Source: a virus
IMG/VR virus record: IMGVR_UViG_3300025655_000170
Location: 1-31,858 of that record
Reading direction: 5' to 3' (one strand)
DNA length: 31,858 nucleotides
The notes beneath the pieces were generated by a model. It was not told the origin of the DNA and made no database searches. It saw nothing but the letters and a program-made list of their open reading frames with translations. How positions within the stretch are numbered: position 1 is the stretch's first letter; each line of letters begins with the position of its first letter. A program made the position numbers and the translations under genes. This document shows positions 9,153-29,715 of this stretch, in pieces.

Positions 9153-10693
9153 TGGCACAACCAATCCAAACCTTTAGTATTTCTGCTCCGGGCTTCTATG
9201 GCCTCAACACGCAAGACTCTTCACTAGACCTTGCGCAGGGCTATGCCTTAGTAGCCAACAATGCAGTGATTGACCAGTATGGACGCATTGGTGCACGGCA
9301 GGGGTGGACTAAAGCCTCAGCAGCCTCCACAGCCCTTAGCACAGCGGATGTGAAGGCTATTGAGCAGCTCGTCACCGCCGATGGCGCTGAATGGGTGGTT
9401 GTTGCCGGAAACAGCAAATTGTTCACCCTTACCTCCGGAGTACTTACAGAGCTCACCTATGGCGGTGGCGGTACAGCTCCGACCATTACAGACAGTAATT
9501 GGCAGATTGTCTCCTTAAACAACTGTGTGTATTTCTTCCAAGAAGGGCACGACCCCTTGGTGTTTGCTCCGCTTGTGAGCACTGCAACATACAGGAGAAT
9601 CACTGAGCAAGCAGGCGCTGTAGGAACGCCTCCCTCTGCGGATATCGCTATTAGTGCTTATGGCCGTCTATGGGCTGCTTCAACGGCTGGTAATAAGAAT
9701 GTGGTTTATTTCTCCGACATCATTGCAGGGCAAGTGTGGAGCACTGGAACAGCAGGCTCCCTAGACATCTCAACTGTATGGCCTGACGGCTCTGATACCA
9801 TTACAGGGCTTGGTGCGCATAATGGCTTCTTGTTCATCTTCGGACGGTCTTCCATTCTTGTCTACTCAGGAGCAACAGCTCCGGCTTCTATTGCTCTCTC
9901 CGACACCATTACAGGCATTGGCTGTGTGGCACGAGACACCATTCAGAATACAGGTAGTGACATCATCTTCTTGTCTGATACAGGGGTGAGAAGTATCCTC
10001 CGTACTGTACAAGAGAAGAGTGCTCCTTTTAGAGATTTGAGCAAGAATGTGCGCAACGACCTCATGAGAGCTGTGCAGGGAGAGCAGGCTAAAACAATCA
10101 AGAGTGTTTATAACCCTTTTGAGAGCTTCTACCTACTAACCTTTCCTGTGCTGAAGCAGGTGTATTGCTTTGACATGAAGCAAGCCCTTCCAGATGGCAG
10201 CGCACGGGTAACGACGTGGGACTCCATTCAGCCGTTGTCGTTCTGCTATCTCCGAAGTAAGGCCATGCTTATTGGCAAGCCCGGCTATGTAGGAATTTAT
10301 ACAGACCACGTAGATGATACCAGCAGCTATCGCTTTCAGTATTTCACCAATCACGCTGACTTAGGCTCACAGGGAGTAACTTCGGTTCTCAAGCGCCTAC
10401 AGGTAGTTGTTATTGGAGGAACCAGCCAGTATGTAACTATTAAATGGGGCTATGATTTCTCTGGAAGTTATTTGTCTCAATCAGTAGGTATTCCAGCTCA
10501 AGGGGTTGACTATTATGGGATTGGGGAGTATAATGTATCTGAATACAGCTTCGGAACATCTTTACAAACCCTTACTGCCTACCCGACAGGAGCAGGGAAG
10601 GTTATACAAACAGGTTATGAATCAGAGATTAACGGTGCTCCTATGAGTATCCAGCGAATAGAAATCCAAGCTAAGAACGGAAAACTACAATGA
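9152..10693 (+). CDS. Tail nozzle (tail-tube B-like) protein
   Basis: 513 residues from ATG 9152 (TAATG overlap with the adaptor gene); the frame also contains an ATG at 9134 that I did not choose. It is a long beta-rich protein with propeller-like repeats, e.g. PGFYGLNTQDSSLDLAQGYA near the start, WPDGSDTITGLGAHNGFLFI and GRSSILVYSG in the middle, and CVARDTIQNTGSDIIFLSDT later. This layout fits the nozzle of short-tailed phages, which extends the tail tip and touches the outer membrane. Its stop overlaps the tail-collar gene by four bases. Confidence 0.78.
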   Translation: MAQPIQTFSISAPGFYGLNTQDSSLDLAQGYALVANNAVIDQYGRIGARQGWTKASAASTALSTADVKAIEQLVTADGAEWVVVAGNSKLFTLTSGVLTELTYGGGGTAPTITDSNWQIVSLNNCVYFFQEGHDPLVFAPLVSTATYRRITEQAGAVGTPPSADIAISAYGRLWAASTAGNKNVVYFSDIIAGQVWSTGTAGSLDISTVWPDGSDTITGLGAHNGFLFIFGRSSILVYSGATAPASIALSDTITGIGCVARDTIQNTGSDIIFLSDTGVRSILRTVQEKSAPFRDLSKNVRNDLMRAVQGEQAKTIKSVYNPFESFYLLTFPVLKQVYCFDMKQALPDGSARVTTWDSIQPLSFCYLRSKAMLIGKPGYVGIYTDHVDDTSSYRFQYFTNHADLGSQGVTSVLKRLQVVVIGGTSQYVTIKWGYDFSGSYLSQSVGIPAQGVDYYGIGEYNVSEYSFGTSLQTLTAYPTGAGKVIQTGYESEINGAPMSIQRIEIQAKNGKLQ

Positions 10694-11415
10694 CAGATTA
10701 TGTAAAGGCTACAGCGTTTGCCTCTAAAGACACTCTTCCCACAGGTAATCCTTTAAAGATCGTTAAGGGGACAGAGATTGACACGGAGTTTAATAACATT
10801 GCAATTGCTGTTGCTACGAAGGCAGACCTGCTGAGTCCTGTGTTCACAGGAACCCCTACAGCACCCACAGCCGCTTATGGTCTAAGTAGTACACAGCTGG
10901 CAACCACTGCTTTTGCAACAGCAGCTGGGCCAGTTACCGGATCAATGCTTATGTGGCCTACAGCAACAGCCCCTACAGGTTTCTTGCTTTGTAATGGGCA
11001 GACGGCCAGTAGAGCAACATATGCGGCTTTGTTTGCCATTGTAGGGGTGTTGTTTGGTGCGGGTGATGGCTCTACAACCTTCACGCTTCCTGACTACCGC
11101 GATAGGATGCCTATTGGTGCGGGGACAACCTACACAGCGGCTATCACTGGAGGTAGTAAAGATGCCGTGGTTGTTAGTCACACACATACAGCATCTGTCA
11201 CTGATCCGGGACACACCCACCAACAAGCAGCCACTGTACCAAATCAGGGGATTGATGGAAGTCCTTTTAGCTCCGCCAATGCAGGATATTCTACTAGCGT
11301 AGTTACTAAAACAAACACCACAGGCATCTCAGTAACCAATGACTCCACAGGCTCCAGCGGCACAGACGCCAACCTGCCTCCCTATCTTGGTATTTTCTTT
11401 ATTATTAAGACCTAA
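10690..11415 (+). CDS. Phage tail-collar domain protein
   Basis: 241 residues, start in an ATGA overlap. The N-terminal ~70 residues hold an attachment-like segment (GTEIDTEFNNIAIAVATKAD). A tail-collar (PF07484-type) domain follows at about 83-145: a PTGFLLCNGQTASRATYAAL core, then FGAGDGSTTFTLPDYRDRMP. Histidines (SHTHTASVTDPGHTH, about 157-177) recall metal-binding His-x-His motifs in short tail fibres. The C-terminus ends in LPPYLGIFFIIKT, typical of this family. It is likely a second receptor-contacting protein besides the fibre at 5691. Confidence 0.85.
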   Translation: MTDYVKATAFASKDTLPTGNPLKIVKGTEIDTEFNNIAIAVATKADLLSPVFTGTPTAPTAAYGLSSTQLATTAFATAAGPVTGSMLMWPTATAPTGFLLCNGQTASRATYAALFAIVGVLFGAGDGSTTFTLPDYRDRMPIGAGTTYTAAITGGSKDAVVVSHTHTASVTDPGHTHQQAATVPNQGIDGSPFSSANAGYSTSVVTKTNTTGISVTNDSTGSSGTDANLPPYLGIFFIIKT

Positions 11416-21601: not shown

Positions 21602-22228
21602 TTAAAAGCTACCCACAATGCTAGGGAATGCCTTAGCAATCTCTTGTTTACACAACAAAGCAACCTCTCGGTGCTCCTTCTGCGTTGCTGGGTCACAGCG
21701 GATGGCTACATAGTGAAGCCAGCTCCGCAGAGTGCCGTTCATGTACATCCGGCTTGTGGTCAAGCCTTCTGGCAGCACCTTACGAGCAACCTCCTTAGCA
21801 ATCCCTTTCTTCAAAGCTTCTTGGTAGATGTATTCAGCATCTGCCACAGCACGGTGTTGCATACCAATCCACCAGTTCTTCAAATACTCGTCATCGCTTT
21901 CAAGGCTGTTCTGTCGATTCTTGCTGTCTTGCAACCGAGCCTCCCCGTATTCAAAGCCGTCAGAAGGAACTTCCGCATATCTCTGTGAGAATTCCTGAAA
22001 GCTAAAGCTTCGATGACGGAGAATCTGCCTAGCAATGTCTCGGGTTGTTTCAATCTCCATGCAAATGTTAACCATCTCCATAGGGCTCCAGTGGTTATTC
22101 TTAATCAAGTATTGAATAAGCTTTGGAGCTGTTTCTTTATTGTCTTGATTAGCGGGGTTGGAAACCCGAGCCATATAAGCCACCAGAGCTTCTCCCTCTG
22201 GCGTTGCCCACACTGTTGTCACCTTCAT
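21602..22228 (-). CDS. thyX: FAD-dependent thymidylate synthase ThyX
   Basis: 208 residues; GGAGAAACAGA precedes ATG 22228. The ThyX signature RHRxxSxxxxSxRY is exact (RHRSFSFQEFSQRY, 71-84), with the upstream HWSPMEM dUMP/FAD segment and the later RSWLHYVAIRCDPATQKEHR active-site region. It makes dTMP from dUMP using methylene-tetrahydrofolate and FADH2. It provides dTTP when the host ThyA is insufficient, working with the reductase encoded downstream. It overlaps the upstream gene by ATGA. Confidence 0.95.
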   Translation of the reverse strand: MKVTTVWATPEGEALVAYMARVSNPANQDNKETAPKLIQYLIKNNHWSPMEMVNICMEIETTRDIARQILRHRSFSFQEFSQRYAEVPSDGFEYGEARLQDSKNRQNSLESDDEYLKNWWIGMQHRAVADAEYIYQEALKKGIAKEVARKVLPEGLTTSRMYMNGTLRSWLHYVAIRCDPATQKEHREVALLCKQEIAKAFPSIVGSF

Positions 22229-22539
22229 TCTGTTTCTCCGGTTGCTTTGGCTACTACTCTTTTCGCAGTCTCGTAATAAGCGAAGGCTCTCGGCCCATAC
22301 CCTGCCTCCTTGTCACAAAACTCATAGTCAGAAATAATCTCTTTAAATTCAGCAAGCAACTCCACATTCACTTCATGCAGGCGGTCTATTTCGCTGAACA
22401 TTGAGCCAACAAACTTATCCCCCGTCAGGTCGCGCCACAATTCACCGTGTCGAGTAACGGTGCAAGTTCCTTGGCCTACAAAGGCTATGTACTTTCCGCC
22501 TTCAAACTCATATCGAAGTGCGTCGGGTTGTTTGGTCAT
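22225..22539 (-). CDS. Small modular phage protein (MTKQP/RLHEVN type)
   Basis: 104 residues from ATG 22539, overlapping the stop of the membrane mini-gene upstream (ATGA). It starts MTKQPDALRYEFEGG and carries DRLHEVNVELLAEF in the middle, both segments shared with the gene at 22631-22882, joined by different connecting sequence. The centre has a beta-type module (IAFVGQGTCTVTRHGELWRD). Such mosaics are common among small phage genes; the function is unknown. A frame from 22581 is longer but less well placed. Confidence 0.65.
   Translation of the reverse strand: MTKQPDALRYEFEGGKYIAFVGQGTCTVTRHGELWRDLTGDKFVGSMFSEIDRLHEVNVELLAEFKEIISDYEFCDKEAGYGPRAFAYYETAKRVVAKATGETE
22360..22384. repeat. 25-base direct repeat, copy 1
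   Basis: Identical to 22751-22775 (CTCCACATTCACTTCATGCA, then GGCGG). Both copies encode the RLHEVNVEL segment of two neighbouring small genes, in the same orientation about 390 bases apart. It marks a duplicated or shuffled module. Confidence 0.85.
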
Positions 22540-22634
22540 GTCTTGCCCCAATACCCTGCGGCAAGGAAGAGTGCCCCACATATAAGCAGAAACACATCCG
22601 TCCAGTGGGCGTGCAGTAAGTCGTAAAAAGTCAT
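22536..22634 (-). CDS. 32-residue single-pass membrane peptide
   Basis: ATG 22634 follows CCGGAGAAAACGC, a good ribosome site, and both ends overlap neighbours as ATGA. The peptide starts MTFYDLLHAHW and has one hydrophobic segment (VFLLICGALFLAAGYW, about residues 14-29) ending in GKT. Translation is supported by the overlap chain and the site rather than by length. It may be a membrane micropeptide; no function is known. Confidence 0.55.
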   Translation of the reverse strand: MTFYDLLHAHWTDVFLLICGALFLAAGYWGKT

Positions 22635-22882
22635 GCGTTTTCTCCGGTTACTTTCCTAAGTAATTCAACCACGTCTGCTCTAGCGTCTCGCCACGGCTGA
22701 GGGTCTTTCATACCGGCGGCTAAAAGTAAGCTGTTCAAAGCAGCGAGCAGCTCCACATTCACTTCATGCAGGCGGCGTAGTTCGGCGGCTGCTTTATCTA
22801 CAATCGTGCCGTCAATCGAATCAAGTCCTTGAATATCTTCAATATCATCAGCCAGTCGAAGTGCTTCTGGTTGTTTAGTCAT
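22631..22882 (-). CDS. Small modular phage protein (MTKQP/RLHEVN type)
   Basis: 83 residues; AAGGAAGAAGAA before ATG 22882, overlapping the HNH stop as ATGA. It begins MTKQPEALRLADDIEDIQG and has LRRLHEVNVELLAALNSLLL at the centre, a helical-hairpin type widespread in phages and prophages of proteobacteria. DNA encoding the shared central piece is identical over 25 bases to the gene at 22225-22539. The function is unknown. Confidence 0.7.
   Translation of the reverse strand: MTKQPEALRLADDIEDIQGLDSIDGTIVDKAAAELRRLHEVNVELLAALNSLLLAAGMKDPQPWRDARADVVELLRKVTGENA
22751..22775. repeat. 25-base direct repeat, copy 2
   Basis: Identical to 22360-22384. It lies in the 22631-22882 gene and encodes the same RLHEVNVEL piece. 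Flanking sequence diverges, while the gene starts (MTKQPxALR) are again alike. Confidence 0.85.
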
Positions 22883-23259
22883 TTCTTCTTCCTTAGTTTC
22901 TTCTCTGCCGCTGTCTTCTCAGCATGGCAAGGCTTGCACAAAACACTTAGATTGTCCTTCTCACAGAACAGCCTATCGACATAAACATCCCAGCTAATGA
23001 AGCCCTTTGAAGGCTCCACCACAGGGCTTGTATGGTCTATCTGCACATCCCCACTAACAAACTCAACAGAGCAAGCGGAGCACCTGTAGTGCATAGCAAG
23101 CTTGCCTGTCTTCTTGTTAGTCTTCCGAGTGGTAGAAGCTTCCTTCAGAGCAGCATACTTAGGAGGCCAGCGGCGGGTAGCCGTTCGCAGCGCACCAGTA
23201 ACGAAGCTTCTGAATTTAGCCGCTGTCCACTCTCCGTCGTTGAAGGAACTACGCTTCAC
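22879..23259 (-). CDS. HNH endonuclease
   Basis: 126 residues from GTG 23259, chosen because GGAG lies eight bases upstream and homologue-like residues begin at RSSFNDGEWTAAKF; a TTG at 23286 gives nine more residues without a site. The HNH core with zinc ligands is clear: YRCSACSVEF, then VQIDHTSPVV, RLFCEKDNLSVLCKPCHAEK. It is predicted to nick or cut DNA. It stands next to the exonuclease gene (11-base overlap), a common arrangement in T7-like replication regions, so a resident replication or packaging nuclease is as likely as a homing element. Confidence 0.87.
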   Translation of the reverse strand: MKRSSFNDGEWTAAKFRSFVTGALRTATRRWPPKYAALKEASTTRKTNKKTGKLAMHYRCSACSVEFVSGDVQIDHTSPVVEPSKGFISWDVYVDRLFCEKDNLSVLCKPCHAEKTAAEKKLRKKK

Positions 23260-23947
23260 TTGGCAGGCTCCATCGTTGTCCTTCAAAGCGGCTCAACCAA
23301 AGCAGCTGTCCATTCTCTAGCAGGCGCTCCGGAGGCTCCTTAGCAGCTTCATAAGCCTTCTTCACTGAAGCGTAGAGCTCTTGCTCTGTCTCACAGCCTG
23401 CAAGAAGCTTCTTAGCTTTAACAGGGCCAATTCCGCGCAAGCCAACAATGTTATCAATTCTGTCTCCTGTCAATAGTTGCAAGTAGAAGCTACGCAGCCC
23501 CTGCTCAGGTGTTACGAAGTATTCCTCTCCCTTTACAGGATTGTAGTGCCATCCCGGAAGCTGGTCTAGGTCTTTGTCTACGTGGACAATCCACCCAACA
23601 TACTTCGTAGAAATAATCCCTACATCGTCGTCAGCTTCTTGGTTCTCGCTCACCGTGGCCCCTAGAGAGATAAGCTTCTCTCGTAAGGCTTCGTAGTGAA
23701 TAGGACGCTCAAGAAGCTTTCTGTTACCTTTATAAGGGTGTGTTACAGCTGTCTCATACCGGAAGTTTGTCTTCCCTGTAATGAAGGCATCGTAGTCTTC
23801 ACATTTCAGTTGGATATAGACAATATCAAAAAGCTGTTCTTGAAGCCGACTACAGGCTATTTCTTCGGCTACATCCTTGGATGAGAAGCCAATTTTATAA
23901 ACCAAATAATCGCTATCAATAAACGCCGTATTAGGGCGCTCTGTCAT
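23249..23947 (-). CDS. 5'-3' exonuclease (T7 gp6 / FEN-like)
   Basis: 232 residues from ATG 23947 (TGATG overlap with SSB; a TTG one codon earlier is possible). The FEN/PIN-like fold is indicated by acidic residues in AFIDSDYLVYKI (near 10-20), EADDDVG (about 105), HVDKDLDQL (about 123-130) and the helix-hairpin-helix GDRIDNIVGLRGIGPVKAKK (about 161-180). It would remove RNA primers and process recombination ends. In T7-like phages it sits with polymerase and SSB, as here. Confidence 0.87.
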   Translation of the reverse strand: MTERPNTAFIDSDYLVYKIGFSSKDVAEEIACSRLQEQLFDIVYIQLKCEDYDAFITGKTNFRYETAVTHPYKGNRKLLERPIHYEALREKLISLGATVSENQEADDDVGIISTKYVGWIVHVDKDLDQLPGWHYNPVKGEEYFVTPEQGLRSFYLQLLTGDRIDNIVGLRGIGPVKAKKLLAGCETEQELYASVKKAYEAAKEPPERLLENGQLLWLSRFEGQRWSLPSEA

Positions 23948-24375
23948 CAAAGAACGTATTCGTCCAGCTCTTCAGACAGCTCCTTAGCAGGGCTGTACGT
24001 GGCCAGTTCCGTAACAATCAGCTTCTTAATAGAGGGAGCATTGCCATGCATCTTGCTCATCTTATGAGTGTAGAAGCTCATAATCGCTGCAACTTTAGTG
24101 CCCTTACCAATGGAGGCTGCTTCAATGGCAGTGCCTTCTTCATCAACTGCGTTATGCACATAGTTACTCTTACACACGATGAAGTTGCCCTGACCATCCT
24201 TGTTCTTAATCTTGATGCCCATAGCCTTCAGAGCCTCGCAATCCTTGTCAGAAATGTCACCAATGGTGCATTCGTACTTGGTGCTGTCTTCATTGAAGGC
24301 TTTGTTGATCTTGCTCATCCACTGAGTCCAATAGAGGGTGCCTGTGATGCGAACTGGTTTCATGTTTTCTGTCAT
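23947..24375 (-). CDS. Single-stranded DNA-binding protein
   Basis: 142 residues, AAGGAAATATT before ATG 24375. An N-terminal OB-type strand pattern (KPVRITGTLYWTQWMSKIN), an internal IKIKNKDGQGNFIVCKS stretch and an acidic tail ending EELDEYVL fit the T7 gp2.5-like layout, in which the acidic C-terminus with a terminal aromatic contacts polymerase and primase. The location between exonuclease and polymerase supports the call. Confidence 0.78.
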   Translation of the reverse strand: MTENMKPVRITGTLYWTQWMSKINKAFNEDSTKYECTIGDISDKDCEALKAMGIKIKNKDGQGNFIVCKSNYVHNAVDEEGTAIEAASIGKGTKVAAIMSFYTHKMSKMHGNAPSIKKLIVTELATYSPAKELSEELDEYVL

Positions 24376-26264: not shown

Positions 26265-26394
26265 AGCGCGCCTTTAGTTTATCTAGTTTTAGCTCTTCAT
26301 GCTCATGGATAAGCTCTTGGTACTTAGCCTGCAAGTCATAATACTTGGTTTCCAGCTCCATCATACGAGCAATTACGGCTTCAAGGGTTATCAT
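26245..26394 (-). CDS. 49-residue coiled-coil mini protein
   Basis: ATG 26394 shares its A with the primase-helicase stop (TAATG), and the stop at 26245 lies inside the polymerase start (20-base overlap), so it bridges the two replication genes. The peptide is a long charged helix (MITLEAVIARMMELETKYYD, then LQAKYQELIHEHEELKLDKL) with heptad-like Leu/Ile spacing. Coupling at both ends makes translation credible. Possible roles are helicase-polymerase contact or simply a coupling peptide. Confidence 0.6.
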   Translation of the reverse strand: MITLEAVIARMMELETKYYDLQAKYQELIHEHEELKLDKLKARYEEDCG

Positions 26395-27995
26395 TATAGC
26401 CCACTTTCATCAATAAGAGGACACTCATTTAAATATCCTGTGTTTCTGTCGTAATGCAAACCAAACTTCTCCCCTGTGGCGCTGCCTGCAAAACGGTCTT
26501 TCAACACTCGGAAGGTTGTTGTCTGTCGCTTCACAGGGTCTGGGTCTTGCTTGTTTCGCTCAAGGCCAAAAAGAAAATGAGCCCACCGAGCAATTGCTCT
26601 ACTACCTGTGAAGTGCTTTTCCAATACCCTACCACCTTCTTCGTGTGCCTTGCCCTCTGGTGTTGTCAAGTGAGCAACAAAGTGAATAATAAGACCGTCA
26701 GATTGAGCCAGACTAGCCATTTCAGCCATAATACCGTCCAATGCCCTCCGCTCATCTTGCTCATTTGCTGCCAATGCCGTTAAGTGATCCAAGTAAATCA
26801 TTTTGATGTCATAAGCTTTAGCGAAGTAGCGAATAATCCCCTTCACTGTGGCCCAGTCCATCGCTCCGAAGTGCTCCATCATGTAAAGCTGCTTGCGGTT
26901 AGACAAACTATCTACGCTTGCTTCGTATTGCGCCTGTGTCCAACCAGCGTCCGGAATGTGATACAGCCTTTTGTCAATCTTTCCAGCAACCCGTTGAGCA
27001 GTCTCTACAACATTCTGCTCCAAGTAAATAACCCCCACCTTCTCGTTCAACACATCAATGTCATAGCTAATCTGCTGAGTAAACACGTCAGTCTTACCCA
27101 CACCAACGCCTGCGCCGAAGCCATAAATCTCCCCCTTACGCCGCCCATATGTGAGGCGGGTAAGCGTTGGGAAACACCACGGAAGCCCCGCCACTGGAGG
27201 GGCCAGCATCCGTTCCTTGATGTCGCTAACCGTCACAATGCCTTCAGGCTTAAACTCCTCAGCTCTCCACCAGAGGTTAACAAACTCTTTCTCTTTCCCT
27301 GCTGCTAAGTAGTCACAAGCATCTTTGAAGCCTGTTGAGTGCTTAACAATCTTGCTCTTGCCTCCGAAGAGTTCAGCAACCTCCTTAGCTGCCTTCTGCC
27401 CCGGCTCATCTGCATCGAAGCAAATAACAATGGAGTCGAAGGAGTCAAGCCACTCAAAGGAGGCTTTGCAGTCCTTCAGGGCTGCCTGTGCGCCGTTCCT
27501 CACACTCACCGTGGGGTAGAGGCTCCCCTGCATCTGAAAGGCTGCTAGAGCGTCCAGCTCACCTTCGCAAATGGTGACTGCCTTTCCCCCAGAACTGAAT
27601 AGGGATTGACCGAACAACTGAGCGCTTTTAAAACTTCCCCGGATAGTGAAAGATTTATCCGCAACACCTCTGACCTTTGAAGCAACAACAGCTCCGCTGG
27701 CGTCAGTGTAAGGGTAATAGTGGCTGTGTTCATCCTGTCTCACCTCGTATTTAGTGCATGTAGAGCGGGTAATTCCTCGTTCAGGAATGCTCTTGATTTC
27801 CCCTGTAATTTCCATAGGTGCTTTCATTGCCTGTTGTCGTTGTGCTTCTTCGTAGCCTCGGTAGCTGTCTTCTCTGTTGTCCTCTCCTGCTGTTGTGCCA
27901 CATGCAAAGCAATGGGTGTGCCCATCGTCGTACAAGGCCGCTGCGTCAGAGCTTCCGCAATGGTTGCATGAAACATGCTTTAGAAACTGGCTCAT
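26394..27995 (-). CDS. Primase-helicase (T7 gp4-like)
   Basis: 533 residues, AAGGAAAACAG before ATG 27995. The N-terminal primase zinc site has four Cys (CNHCGSSDAA at 10-13; HCFACG at 29-32) with spacing as in T7 gp4. A TOPRIM primase core follows (ICEGELDALAAFQ near 144; CFDADEPGQKAA near 193). The helicase part carries Walker A GAGVGVGKTD (about 295-304), a catalytic Glu in IYLEQNV, Walker B IYLDHLT (about 402-408) and a later VAHLTTPEG segment. It forms a hexamer that unwinds the fork and lays primers for the lagging strand. Confidence 0.95.
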   Translation of the reverse strand: MSQFLKHVSCNHCGSSDAAALYDDGHTHCFACGTTAGEDNREDSYRGYEEAQRQQAMKAPMEITGEIKSIPERGITRSTCTKYEVRQDEHSHYYPYTDASGAVVASKVRGVADKSFTIRGSFKSAQLFGQSLFSSGGKAVTICEGELDALAAFQMQGSLYPTVSVRNGAQAALKDCKASFEWLDSFDSIVICFDADEPGQKAAKEVAELFGGKSKIVKHSTGFKDACDYLAAGKEKEFVNLWWRAEEFKPEGIVTVSDIKERMLAPPVAGLPWCFPTLTRLTYGRRKGEIYGFGAGVGVGKTDVFTQQISYDIDVLNEKVGVIYLEQNVVETAQRVAGKIDKRLYHIPDAGWTQAQYEASVDSLSNRKQLYMMEHFGAMDWATVKGIIRYFAKAYDIKMIYLDHLTALAANEQDERRALDGIMAEMASLAQSDGLIIHFVAHLTTPEGKAHEEGGRVLEKHFTGSRAIARWAHFLFGLERNKQDPDPVKRQTTTFRVLKDRFAGSATGEKFGLHYDRNTGYLNECPLIDESGL

Positions 27996-28113
27996 CTGTT
28001 TTCCTTAGTGATCGAACTACTATCTTAGCATCTAATCGACTTGCAAACCACTTGCTTAGCCTTTTATTTAAGTCTTGGCAGAGCCACTCGTTAATTCTCT
28101 TCAGCTCTTGCAT
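27946..28113 (-). CDS. Small basic protein ahead of primase-helicase
   Basis: 55 residues from ATG 28113, with TAGGAGAGAACAC upstream. Arg/Lys-rich and helical (MQELKRINEWLCQDLNKRLS, then KWFASRLDAKIVVRSLRKTD). Its last 50 bases overlap the primase-helicase start in another phase, and its start overlaps the stop of the upstream gene. The ribosome site is good, but the long overlap lowers certainty. Confidence 0.45.
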   Translation of the reverse strand: MQELKRINEWLCQDLNKRLSKWFASRLDAKIVVRSLRKTDEPVSKACFMQPLRKL

Positions 28114-28565
28114 GTGTTCTCTCCTATGCCGTGGGCGGAATCTCGCGTTATCCACGCTTTTCGATGGCCTGCGTAAAAGATTCGGCGCATTTCTGGAAAG
28201 TCCAAAGCTGGCCGCGCCTTGAAGTATTCGTCTGAAGCATCGTTGCAATACGCCTCGCACACCGCACGGTCTTGCTCATCCGTCAGCGGCTGGCGCTTTG
28301 GTGAATAGTCCTCTTCTATGCTTTTCATCAGCACTTTTGTATATGGGTTTGCCTGCCAGCTATCGAAGTCATCTGGCTGTGCCATTAATTCGTCAATGCG
28401 TTTTTCCAGCCTTTTGATTGTGGCTTCATGGTATTGAATGATGAGGTCATCTTCATCGGGCTGTGCCAAGGCTGCTTTGATTGCGGTAATAGCTTCTTCA
28501 CATTTGGGTGTTGCGCTAGTCCAGAGCACCAGCAGTGCCAGCTTCAATGCTTCGTCTTTAGTCAT
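28101..28565 (-). CDS. Mosaic early phage protein
   Basis: 154 residues, TAGGAGAGAAGAC before ATG 28565. The order is a helical KLALLVLWTSATPKCEEAITAIKAALAQ, an acidic helix IIQYHEATIKRLEKRIDELM, then KRQPLTDEQDRAVCEAYCND and DSAHGIGENTC near the end. Several pieces (AALAQP, KRQPLTDEQ, HGIGENT) recur in the neighbouring gene and in many proteobacterial phage proteins of unknown function. It is a candidate for interaction with host factors, without direct evidence. Confidence 0.65.
   Translation of the reverse strand: MTKDEALKLALLVLWTSATPKCEEAITAIKAALAQPDEDDLIIQYHEATIKRLEKRIDELMAQPDDFDSWQANPYTKVLMKSIEEDYSPKRQPLTDEQDRAVCEAYCNDASDEYFKARPALDFPEMRRIFYAGHRKAWITRDSAHGIGENTCKS
28111..28138. repeat. 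Repeated gene-junction element, copy 1
   Basis: Matches 28563-28590 at 26 of 28 bases. It contains the ATG start, the TAGGAGAGAA ribosome site and the codons for the end of the preceding protein. The pair marks two successive junctions. Confidence 0.75.
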
Positions 28566-29008
28566 GTCTTCTCTCCTATGTCGTGGGCGGCTTCAACCAT
28601 GTCGATCAAGATTGATTCAGCGTTCCAGCTAGACCTGCTCGGTGCAAACGCTGTTAGTAAATCAAGCCTTTGCTCGTGAGTCAGCGGCTGGCGCTCCATT
28701 ACAACAAACCCCACCGGCTCCTGTTCTGGCTGGCGCTTTGGTGGTGATGCGTACAGCGGATTCCAACATTCAGACTCTCCAGTCGGCGGTATCTTTTTAC
28801 GAAATGTTGCCGTGTCTAACCACTGCCAAGCCACAGGCTCCCGCTCTTGCAACTGCCCAAAATCTGCCACTGCTTGCAGATGCGATTCCGCTTCCTGCTT
28901 TGCCAAGGCGTTGCGCAGGGCTGCGATAGTGTCCATCCAATAATCACCGTAATTACCTTGGGCGTTTTCCAGTGCCTCAAGCGCCTGCTGCATCACGGCG
29001 CGGGTCAT
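28562..29008 (-). CDS. Mosaic early phage protein
   Basis: 148 residues; AAAGGAGCCAATC before ATG 29008. It begins MTRAVMQQALEALENAQGNY, followed by TIAALRNALAKQEAESHLQA, EREPVAWQWLDTATF, PLYASPPKRQ, RQPLTHEQR and AHDIGEKT. This modular chain is typical of accessory genes in betaproteobacterial and gammaproteobacterial phages, where individual modules are shuffled. Its C-terminal module parallels the gene at 28101. The function is unknown. Confidence 0.65.
   Translation of the reverse strand: MTRAVMQQALEALENAQGNYGDYWMDTIAALRNALAKQEAESHLQAVADFGQLQEREPVAWQWLDTATFRKKIPPTGESECWNPLYASPPKRQPEQEPVGFVVMERQPLTHEQRLDLLTAFAPSRSSWNAESILIDMVEAAHDIGEKT
28563..28590. repeat. Repeated gene-junction element, copy 2
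   Basis: Partner of 28111-28138 with two mismatches. Again it covers stop, ribosome site and start of neighbouring genes. Confidence 0.75.
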
Positions 29009-29020
29009 GATTGGCTCCTT
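29005..29020. repeat. Repeated initiation cassette, copy 1
   Basis: The - strand reads AAGGAGCCAATCATGA, identical to 29181-29196. It is a complete unit of ribosome site, 6-base spacer and ATGA stop/start overlap. Confidence 0.75.
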
Positions 29021-29184
29021 TCTTCAAGTGCTTTTGCATCGAACCAAATATTCCAAGGCTGCTCGATCTTCTTAACTTGACACTTGTTGCACTTGTTGCA
29101 GTAGCGTGACTGCACTTTCGCGTAGTCGCTCATGGTGTCCACGGGTTTCGACCAGATACCCCAGTCGTGGAAACAAAACTTCAT
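29005..29184 (-). CDS. 59-residue Cys/His zinc-finger-like protein
   Basis: AAGGAGCCAATC precedes ATG 29184, and both ends overlap neighbours as ATGA. The sequence holds Cys4, His6, then Cys29-x2-Cys32-x2-Cys35 (MKFCFHDWGIWSKP, RYCNKCNKCQVKK), fitting a small zinc fold. Comparable CFHxWGxW proteins with a CxxC pair occur in many coliphages with no known function. It may bind nucleic acid or a host protein. Confidence 0.7.
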   Translation of the reverse strand: MKFCFHDWGIWSKPVDTMSDYAKVQSRYCNKCNKCQVKKIEQPWNIWFDAKALEERSQS

Positions 29185-29196
29185 GATTGGCTCCTT
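29181..29196. repeat. Repeated initiation cassette, copy 2
   Basis: Identical to 29005-29020, one gene upstream. Together they bracket the zinc-finger-like gene 29005-29184. Confidence 0.75.
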
Positions 29197-29423
29197 GCTC
29201 GGATAACTTCGTGTAATTCCATATCACCCGTCATGTCATACCCGTGAATATGAAACTGTTGAGCAAGCAATGCACAAGCCTCACGCTCCGCAGCGGCTAC
29301 AAGGTTGGCGAAGCGTTTGATGATCTCCATGTTGTACGCGTACATGCCGGGAACACCAGCAAGCCCATATTCAGAACTCTCAAAACCAGCTTCTTTCGCC
29401 ATTTGGATAATGTCTTTAGTCAT
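29181..29423 (-). CDS. Small accessory phage protein
   Basis: 80 residues, GGGAGAAACAGA before ATG 29423. The pattern MTKDIIQMAKEAGFESSEYG, then IIKRFANLVAAAEREACALL, is common among proteobacterial phage and prophage early proteins; the AAAEREACA helix is its most typical part. The function is unknown. It overlaps the upstream gene by 8 bases (ATGACTAA) and the zinc-finger-like gene by ATGA. Confidence 0.7.
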   Translation of the reverse strand: MTKDIIQMAKEAGFESSEYGLAGVPGMYAYNMEIIKRFANLVAAAEREACALLAQQFHIHGYDMTGDMELHEVIRARSQS

Positions 29424-29616
29424 TCTGTTTCTCCCTATAAAGCGTGTTCATTGTTTCAAACCCGTGCTCTTCCCTACTGAGCACCCTAGAAGTGCGTATA
29501 AGCTGCGTTCCAAGCAAGGGGTGACCTATGCCATAGACAAGGGCTGTAAAGCCTTCAGCGCTGCCCTGTATAGGCCGGAACGTTGCTTCCCCTTCGTAAT
29601 AGACAACTGGTTTCAT
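29416..29616 (-). CDS. Small conserved-type early protein
   Basis: 66 residues; AGGAGTTCTCAA before ATG 29616. Beta-rich with the segment ALVYGIGHPLLGTQLIRTSR (about 25-44) followed by VLSREEHGFETMNTLYRE. I recognise the LVY-x-HP-x-LG-x4-RTSRVL pattern from small phage proteins, but not a function. The start overlaps the stop of an upstream micro-ORF. Confidence 0.65.
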   Translation of the reverse strand: MKPVVYYEGEATFRPIQGSAEGFTALVYGIGHPLLGTQLIRTSRVLSREEHGFETMNTLYREKQND

Positions 29617-29663
29617 TTGAGAACTCCTATATAAGTTAAGATAAGAACTATTACCTTAGACAT
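29613..29663 (-). CDS. 16-residue hydrophobic micro-ORF
   Basis: MSKVIVLILTYIGVLK, from ATG 29663 to a TGA shared with the next ATG (ATGA). Its start lies 8 bases inside the previous micro-ORF (29656-29663). The whole peptide is one hydrophobic stretch with Lys at both ends, like a membrane micropeptide. The ribosome site is weak, so expression would depend on coupling. It might simply be a spacer with an accidental frame. Confidence 0.3.
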   Translation of the reverse strand: MSKVIVLILTYIGVLK

Positions 29664-29715
29664 CTGCTACCAACTTAATTATAAACACAACGACAATAAA
29701 AGAGACATAAATCAT
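29656..29715 (-). CDS. 19-residue membrane micro-ORF
   Basis: MIYVSFIVVVFIIKLVADV, from ATG 29715 with GGAAG seven bases upstream, inside the end of the 58-residue gene (ATGA overlap). Residues 2-17 form a transmembrane-like segment. The site and the overlap are real features of the sequence; whether it is translated needs testing. Confidence 0.38.
   Translation of the reverse strand: MIYVSFIVVVFIIKLVADV

Follow-up and report, generated by a model that had tools for sequence, protein, structure and literature searches.

In the DNA analysed here (a stretch of 31,858 nucleotides from an IMG/VR virus record, hereafter the window), three short repeats occur at junctions between small genes, and every one of them combines the C-terminal codons of the upstream gene and a Shine-Dalgarno (SD) sequence with the overlapping start of the downstream gene. 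In a syntenic relative these junctions are fixed and the genes between them have changed, sites are empty in one phage and filled in another, and homology between phages ends at the ATGA of the junction. We consider it probable that the repeats serve as portable gene-end adaptors, and that crossover within such islands replaces, inserts or deletes small genes. On the basis of these sequence comparisons, small genes are exchanged at gene starts, with the junction islands as likely crossover points.

Three repeats and the genes they join

Repeat A (AAGGAGCCAATCATGA) is present in two exact copies on the minus strand, at 29005-29020 and 29181-29196, with none expected, and the pair can be extended to 19 nt at 95% identity. 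Repeat C (GGAGAAACAGAATGA) also has two exact minus-strand copies (22225-22239 and 29420-29434), and repeat B lies on the same strand at 28111-28138 and 28563-28590, where TAGGAGAGAANACATG occurs in two copies and the likeness extends to 28 nt (26/28 identity). All three pairs had been reported in an earlier note on this DNA, and each was found where that note had placed it. To evaluate them, we used a position-specific null model derived from 43 gene starts of the window itself, two further starts being left out; as it contains the repeats themselves, this start model is conservative. Shared runs of at least 15 bases ending at a start codon were represented by two pairs in the window and appeared in 0 of 2000 simulations, and the expected count of shared runs of at least 12 bases at starts was 0.0165. 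The repeats exceed the level that ribosome-site composition predicts, so this refuting outcome named in the earlier note did not occur. An origin by chance or composition is hardly credible: although the A 16-mer is present in 77 IMG/VR stretches, many of which are plain ribosome sites, such an origin is contradicted by these simulations and by the conservation of the islands in the relative L069 described below.

The six copies are arranged as follows:

Junction A, copy 1, 29181-29196 (minus strand): last codons (...IRARSQS-stop) of 29181-29423, SD, ATG of 29005-29184
Junction A, copy 2, 29005-29020 (minus strand): last codons (...ERSQS-stop) of 29005-29184, SD, ATG of 28562-29008
Junction B, copy 1, 28563-28590 (minus strand): last codons (AAHDIGEKT-stop) of 28562-29008, SD, ATG of 28101-28565
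Junction B, copy 2, 28111-28138 (minus strand): AHGIGENT codons of 28101-28565, SD, ATG of 27946-28113
Junction C, copy 1, 29420-29434 (minus strand): end of 29416-29616 read as YREKQND-stop, SD, ATG of 29181-29423
Junction C, copy 2, 22225-22239 (minus strand): end (KATGETE-stop) of the 22225-22539 gene, SD, ATG of thyX

The SD in junction A is AAGGAG. A and B encode C-terminal peptides that are common to their upstream genes (RSQS-stop and AH(D/G)IGE(K/N)T, respectively). C is read in two frames, ending in KATGETE at 22225 and in YREKQND at 29420, and thus its common part is DNA and not peptide. Since the ribosome site is supplied from upstream, whatever small gene is joined at the ATGA would be translated and coupled at once, and these junctions are expected to couple translation in the cell. 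It should be noted that four-base ATGA overlaps make up 54% of close gene pairs in such regions and are, taken by themselves, weak evidence.

The genes concerned, first in their minus-strand order as far as the primase/helicase and then around the second C copy, are:

29416-29616 (minus strand): conserved left flank gene 'HPLLGTQL', 66 aa, also found in the relatives L069, L081 and L083
29181-29423 (minus strand): small mosaic gene, 80 aa, with FANLVAAAEREACA core and IRARSQS tail; member of the EREACA family
29005-29184 (minus strand): small CxxC gene 'FCFHDW', 59 aa, flanked by the two A copies; missing at the L069 locus
28562-29008 (minus strand): mosaic gene, 148 aa, with MTR.VMQQALEALE head, RQPLT motif and AAHDIGEKT tail; L069 has another body
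28101-28565 (minus strand): mosaic gene, 154 aa, with MTKDEALKLAL head, RQPLTDEQ motif and AHGIGENT tail
28273-28298 (minus strand): RQPLTDEQ internal island within 28101-28565
27946-28113 (minus strand): 55-aa gene ahead of the primase/helicase; L069 homology picks up again at 28112
26394-27995 (minus strand): DNA primase/helicase, conserved right flank
21602-22228: ThyX (PHROG thymidylate synthase), starting at the 22225 C copy
22225-22539 (minus strand): mosaic gene MTKQPDALR..LHEVNVELL..KATGETE with C tail
22631-22882 (minus strand): sister mosaic gene MTKQPEALRLADD..LHEVNVELL..TGENA

The islands are the C-terminal tails of mosaic protein families, with further islands inside genes, which the earlier reader had overlooked. 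The neighbours 22225-22539 and 22631-22882, with common MTKQPxALR heads and LHEVNVELL cores, belong to another mosaic family, whose tails are of the C type (ACC GGA GAA). Neither the five exchanged genes nor the 29416 gene beside them obtained a convincing score against any PHROG, Pfam or PADLOC family, and comparison of the small proteins with the named phages of INPHARED gave no matches or weak ones only. A comparison with Rfam for structured RNA elements at the junctions gave no match at E <= 0.1 in 27900-29700. Two candidates were rejected: a short GCCG..CGGC stem in the B island, which is broken in both window copies, and a 62-aa ORF at 27545-27733 nested in the primase gene, which is open in the window, L069 and close relatives and interrupted by stops in other relatives, as expected of a frame shadow.

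Paired junctions could also stem from whole genes having recently been duplicated in tandem in this phage, and 28101-28565 and 28562-29008 do have the RQPLT motif and the tail in common. However, these two genes have unrelated bodies (their best blastp E-value is 0.06), and the pair of genes ending in RSQS has just a nine-residue stretch in common, which makes such duplication very unlikely as the source of the pairs.

Gene content and junctions in related phages

We collected 80 related IMG/VR loci through the primase, all of them metagenomic contigs. In relatives aligning beyond the primase, 27.9-29.7 kb is a variable stretch between conserved neighbours. One contig, L069, on which some of the following comparisons rest, entered through its exact A match and then proved to be syntenic. 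Its flanks are 85.6% identical to the window over 797 nt on one side and 84.8% over 716 nt on the other, and between them the islands alone can be aligned: island A over 47 nt at 87% (identical across the 16-mer), island B over 33 nt at 97%, island C over 32 nt at 87.5% and the internal RQPLT motif over 26 nt at 92%. The small genes differ, and the sequence beside the islands is unrelated. The earlier note had suggested searching related phages for fixed junctions with differing gene content, and this is the pattern that L069 displays, with A, B and C all kept; the opposite pattern, the same genes with diverged junctions, was not seen in the relatives.

Several sites show individual gains, losses and rearrangements. 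L069 has a single A and lacks the 29005-29184 gene, whereas the window has two A copies around that gene, which represents an empty and a filled site. L069 also has an additional gene, similar in type to the 22225/22631 genes (84-96% identical in patches of 27-45 nt), between two C-like junctions; the left part of the second junction matches the 22225 copy of the window and its right part the 29420 copy. In L081, B is kept and followed by a different gene. In L083, the 29005-type gene is kept and ends in A, after which comes another tiny gene, and in L160 the 29005-type gene ends in a C-type tail, not A. Gene order is permuted as well, since the gene with the EVLK-stop tail lies ahead of the 29005-type gene in L083 and behind it in L160. 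Elsewhere in L069, the HPLLGTQL protein contains an in-frame tandem SEG repeat (SEGSEGSEGSEG; 10674-10910, reverse strand) that is not present in the window.

Tails and breakpoints across IMG/VR phages

The tails are widespread. The B tail peptide matches at least 599 IMG/VR stretches, and both the B tail (RAIEAAHGIGE.T plus ATGA) and the A tail (AIRARSQS/G plus ATGA) precede many unrelated genes in other IMG/VR phages. Among host genomes in GTDB, the strict B pattern had 0 matches and a looser pattern had one, in a Competibacteraceae MAG. Among 79 B-type tails picked by peptide alone, the next gene starts on the stop codon in 52, and the genes that follow this set fall into 45 clusters among 76 proteins. 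Comparison of in-register nucleotide pairs across the B junction revealed that in 1332 of 1629 the match is confined to the island (mean 44 nt, 89%); the matches end most often at +4, the last base of the ATGA, and 3 of 1629 run more than 100 nt into the next gene. In the EREACA family, the same overlap is found in 59 of 73 members, and 57 members end in IRAR. Recent cases are also available: L301 and L306 are 98.9% identical over 729 nt up to +4 and unrelated beyond, and L298/L339, L268/L290, L296/L335 and L199/L263 resemble them. In L268, two copies of AGCAAGGGGTGAGCAATGA enclose an insert of 839 nt at a place where L290 has one copy, again an empty and a filled site.

Other inserts were observed with repeats at their borders. 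Between L298 and L312 there is an insert of 281 bp, bordered by a 58-nt repeat that encodes the LERFAALVAAAEREACA core, which may have come from exchange or duplication at an internal island. In L132 and L135, compared with L141 (all distant primase relatives), a direct repeat of ~38 nt with a hairpin-like core (TAGCGCTTTTGCTA) flanks inserts of 250-292 bp; it is possibly a promoter or terminator element.

Codon choice was used to separate conservation of DNA from that of peptide. Within the B island, codon usage is far more uniform than in the bodies of the same genes (Ala GCC 0.68 vs 0.22, Glu GAA 0.90 vs 0.49, Gly GGC 0.79 vs 0.33), and the internal R(K/Q)PLT motif has the same uniformity, though it has no evident ribosome role. 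Such uniformity suggests that pieces of DNA have spread and that constraint on the peptide is not the whole cause. The tails might instead be functional C-terminal peptide motifs of two protein families, with the DNA repeats simply following; tails A and B do encode conserved peptides (IRARS/G and RAIEAAHGI), and related bodies occur. Given that the Ala and Gly codons of the islands are conserved beyond usage in the same genes, that C is read in two frames and that tail A sits on unrelated proteins, we regard this explanation as improbable, although the tails could also be kept as peptides. One of these unrelated proteins is an HNH_3 endonuclease-like ORF in L034 that carries tail A (AAIRARSQS) ahead of 545-571 on the minus strand, and nucleases of this type could themselves provoke exchange at adjoining junctions.

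We then measured where gains and losses take place. In the fetched loci, 55 of 120 clean distinct insertions lie at gene starts (10.6 expected), and right ends of alignments of at least 88% fall within -5 to +10 of a start in 85 of 214 cases (5.3 expected), so gene starts are the general breakpoints. A clear flanking direct repeat accompanies 12 of the 120 insertions (counted without an overlap filter; requiring an overlap of at least 8 nt favours repeats and gives 8/46), compared with 0.6% of random start pairs (~17-fold). Thus, most small-gene gain and loss in these loci needs little homology: island homology is clear for a minority of the insertions there and is the rule within the tail families. 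The earlier note's view of homology islands through which small genes are swapped is supported by the kept junctions and changed genes of L069, within the limits that ~90% of insertions in the fetched loci have no long flanking repeat and that the use of the islands in recombination is our inference.

These counts bear directly on illegitimate recombination with selection, according to which breaks are random, survivors are those broken at gene starts, and the likeness of junctions reflects ribosome-site needs. The excess of insertions at starts with so few clear repeats fits this explanation, as does the fact that many of the event repeats are merely AGGA..ATGA-like. Nevertheless, the pairs in the window exceed the ribosome-site model, the B islands extend 44 nt upstream, far past an SD, clear repeats flank insertions much more often than random start pairs, and three separate islands are kept in L069 despite differing genes. 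We consequently consider it unlikely, while it deserves more weight than the other alternatives.

Proposed exchange of small genes and known systems

We propose that an adaptor is an island of ~15-45 nt that ends a small accessory gene, holds an SD inside its last codons and supplies the overlapping ATG(A) of the next gene. Phages would draw on a common pool of such small genes, and crossover in the islands, whether it involves two phages or two copies within a genome, would replace, insert or delete single genes and leave the islands in place. The phage has T7-type replication genes (primase/helicase, polymerase and 5'-3' exonuclease), and two of its genes may be involved:

23249-23950 (minus strand): 5'-3' exonuclease, possible resection factor
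23947-24375 (minus strand): predicted T7 gp2.5-like single-stranded DNA-binding protein (SSB), possible annealing factor

The 23947-24375 protein had no Pfam or PHROG match, and its predicted structure (mean pLDDT 83) matches the SSB of phage Enc34 and T7 gp2.5. T7 gp2.5 is able to anneal complementary strands. Exchange seems likeliest to proceed by resection and annealing at the islands, probably as single-strand annealing by the phage exonuclease and the gp2.5-like SSB. A broader proposal is that many unrelated aquatic phages hold a common adaptor set (tail codons, SD, ATGA and internal islands) that is maintained because it enables small-gene exchange, as a community-wide plug-in system and not a by-product of ribosome sites or shared ancestry; we consider this rather doubtful.

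It is a long-standing question whether phage mosaicism arises by short border homology or by random joining and selection, and cases of clear homology at gene borders have been rare. The tails described here form a large natural data set (at least 599 IMG/VR stretches per tail type) that makes border islands countable, datable and testable. It also explains simply how tiny phage genes may be exchanged and still be expressed, namely that the ribosome site comes from the upstream gene, and the tails provide markers to find and bound exchangeable accessory genes in metagenomic phages.

One of the closest comparisons is with mycobacteriophages of Subcluster I1. In Island3 gene 67/68, an inserted small gene repeats the 60-bp 3' end of the preceding gene (18 C-terminal residues), and Brujita, which lacks the insert, has one copy; recombination between ~50-bp repeats was inferred by the authors (PMC3029335). 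The arrangement of two copies around an inserted small gene, with one in the relative without it, is the same here. However, Island3/Brujita is a single case, whereas here the recurring tails are of several types, found in one operon and in many metagenomic phages, and they contain an SD and overlapping ATGA and sit on unrelated proteins. Boundary sequences of lambdoid phages (Susskind and Botstein, 1978; Clark et al., 2001, on HK620) are described as short conserved homology at module borders that serves module swapping (PMC3029335, PMC2327257). As far as these accounts describe them, they resemble our islands in that a short conserved sequence stays at the border of exchanged modules while gene content differs; those are modules of temperate phages, whereas here single small genes are concerned, in phages of T7-type replication, with coding islands that also initiate translation. 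The Start-Associated Sequences of Cluster K mycobacteriophages are 13-bp repeats with AGGAG just before the starts of genes of different families (PMC3203893). They share with our repeats the AGGAG and the position at starts of genes from different families, but have one consensus (GGGATAGGAGCCC) and were described as start-associated, not as a C-terminal tail, and no gene exchange was demonstrated there. In the window, this consensus had 0 copies with up to 2 mismatches and 11 with 3 mismatches (6.9 expected). The ninR region of lambda, reportedly described by Kroger and Hobom in 1982, is said to be a chain of small interlinked genes with overlapping ATGA stop/start and the SD inside the preceding gene, and our small genes are built in a like manner. 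Short conserved boundary sequences in phages are already known; what is distinct here is the triple role of the island, the several tail types per operon, the unrelated bodies on one tail and the breadth of occurrence.
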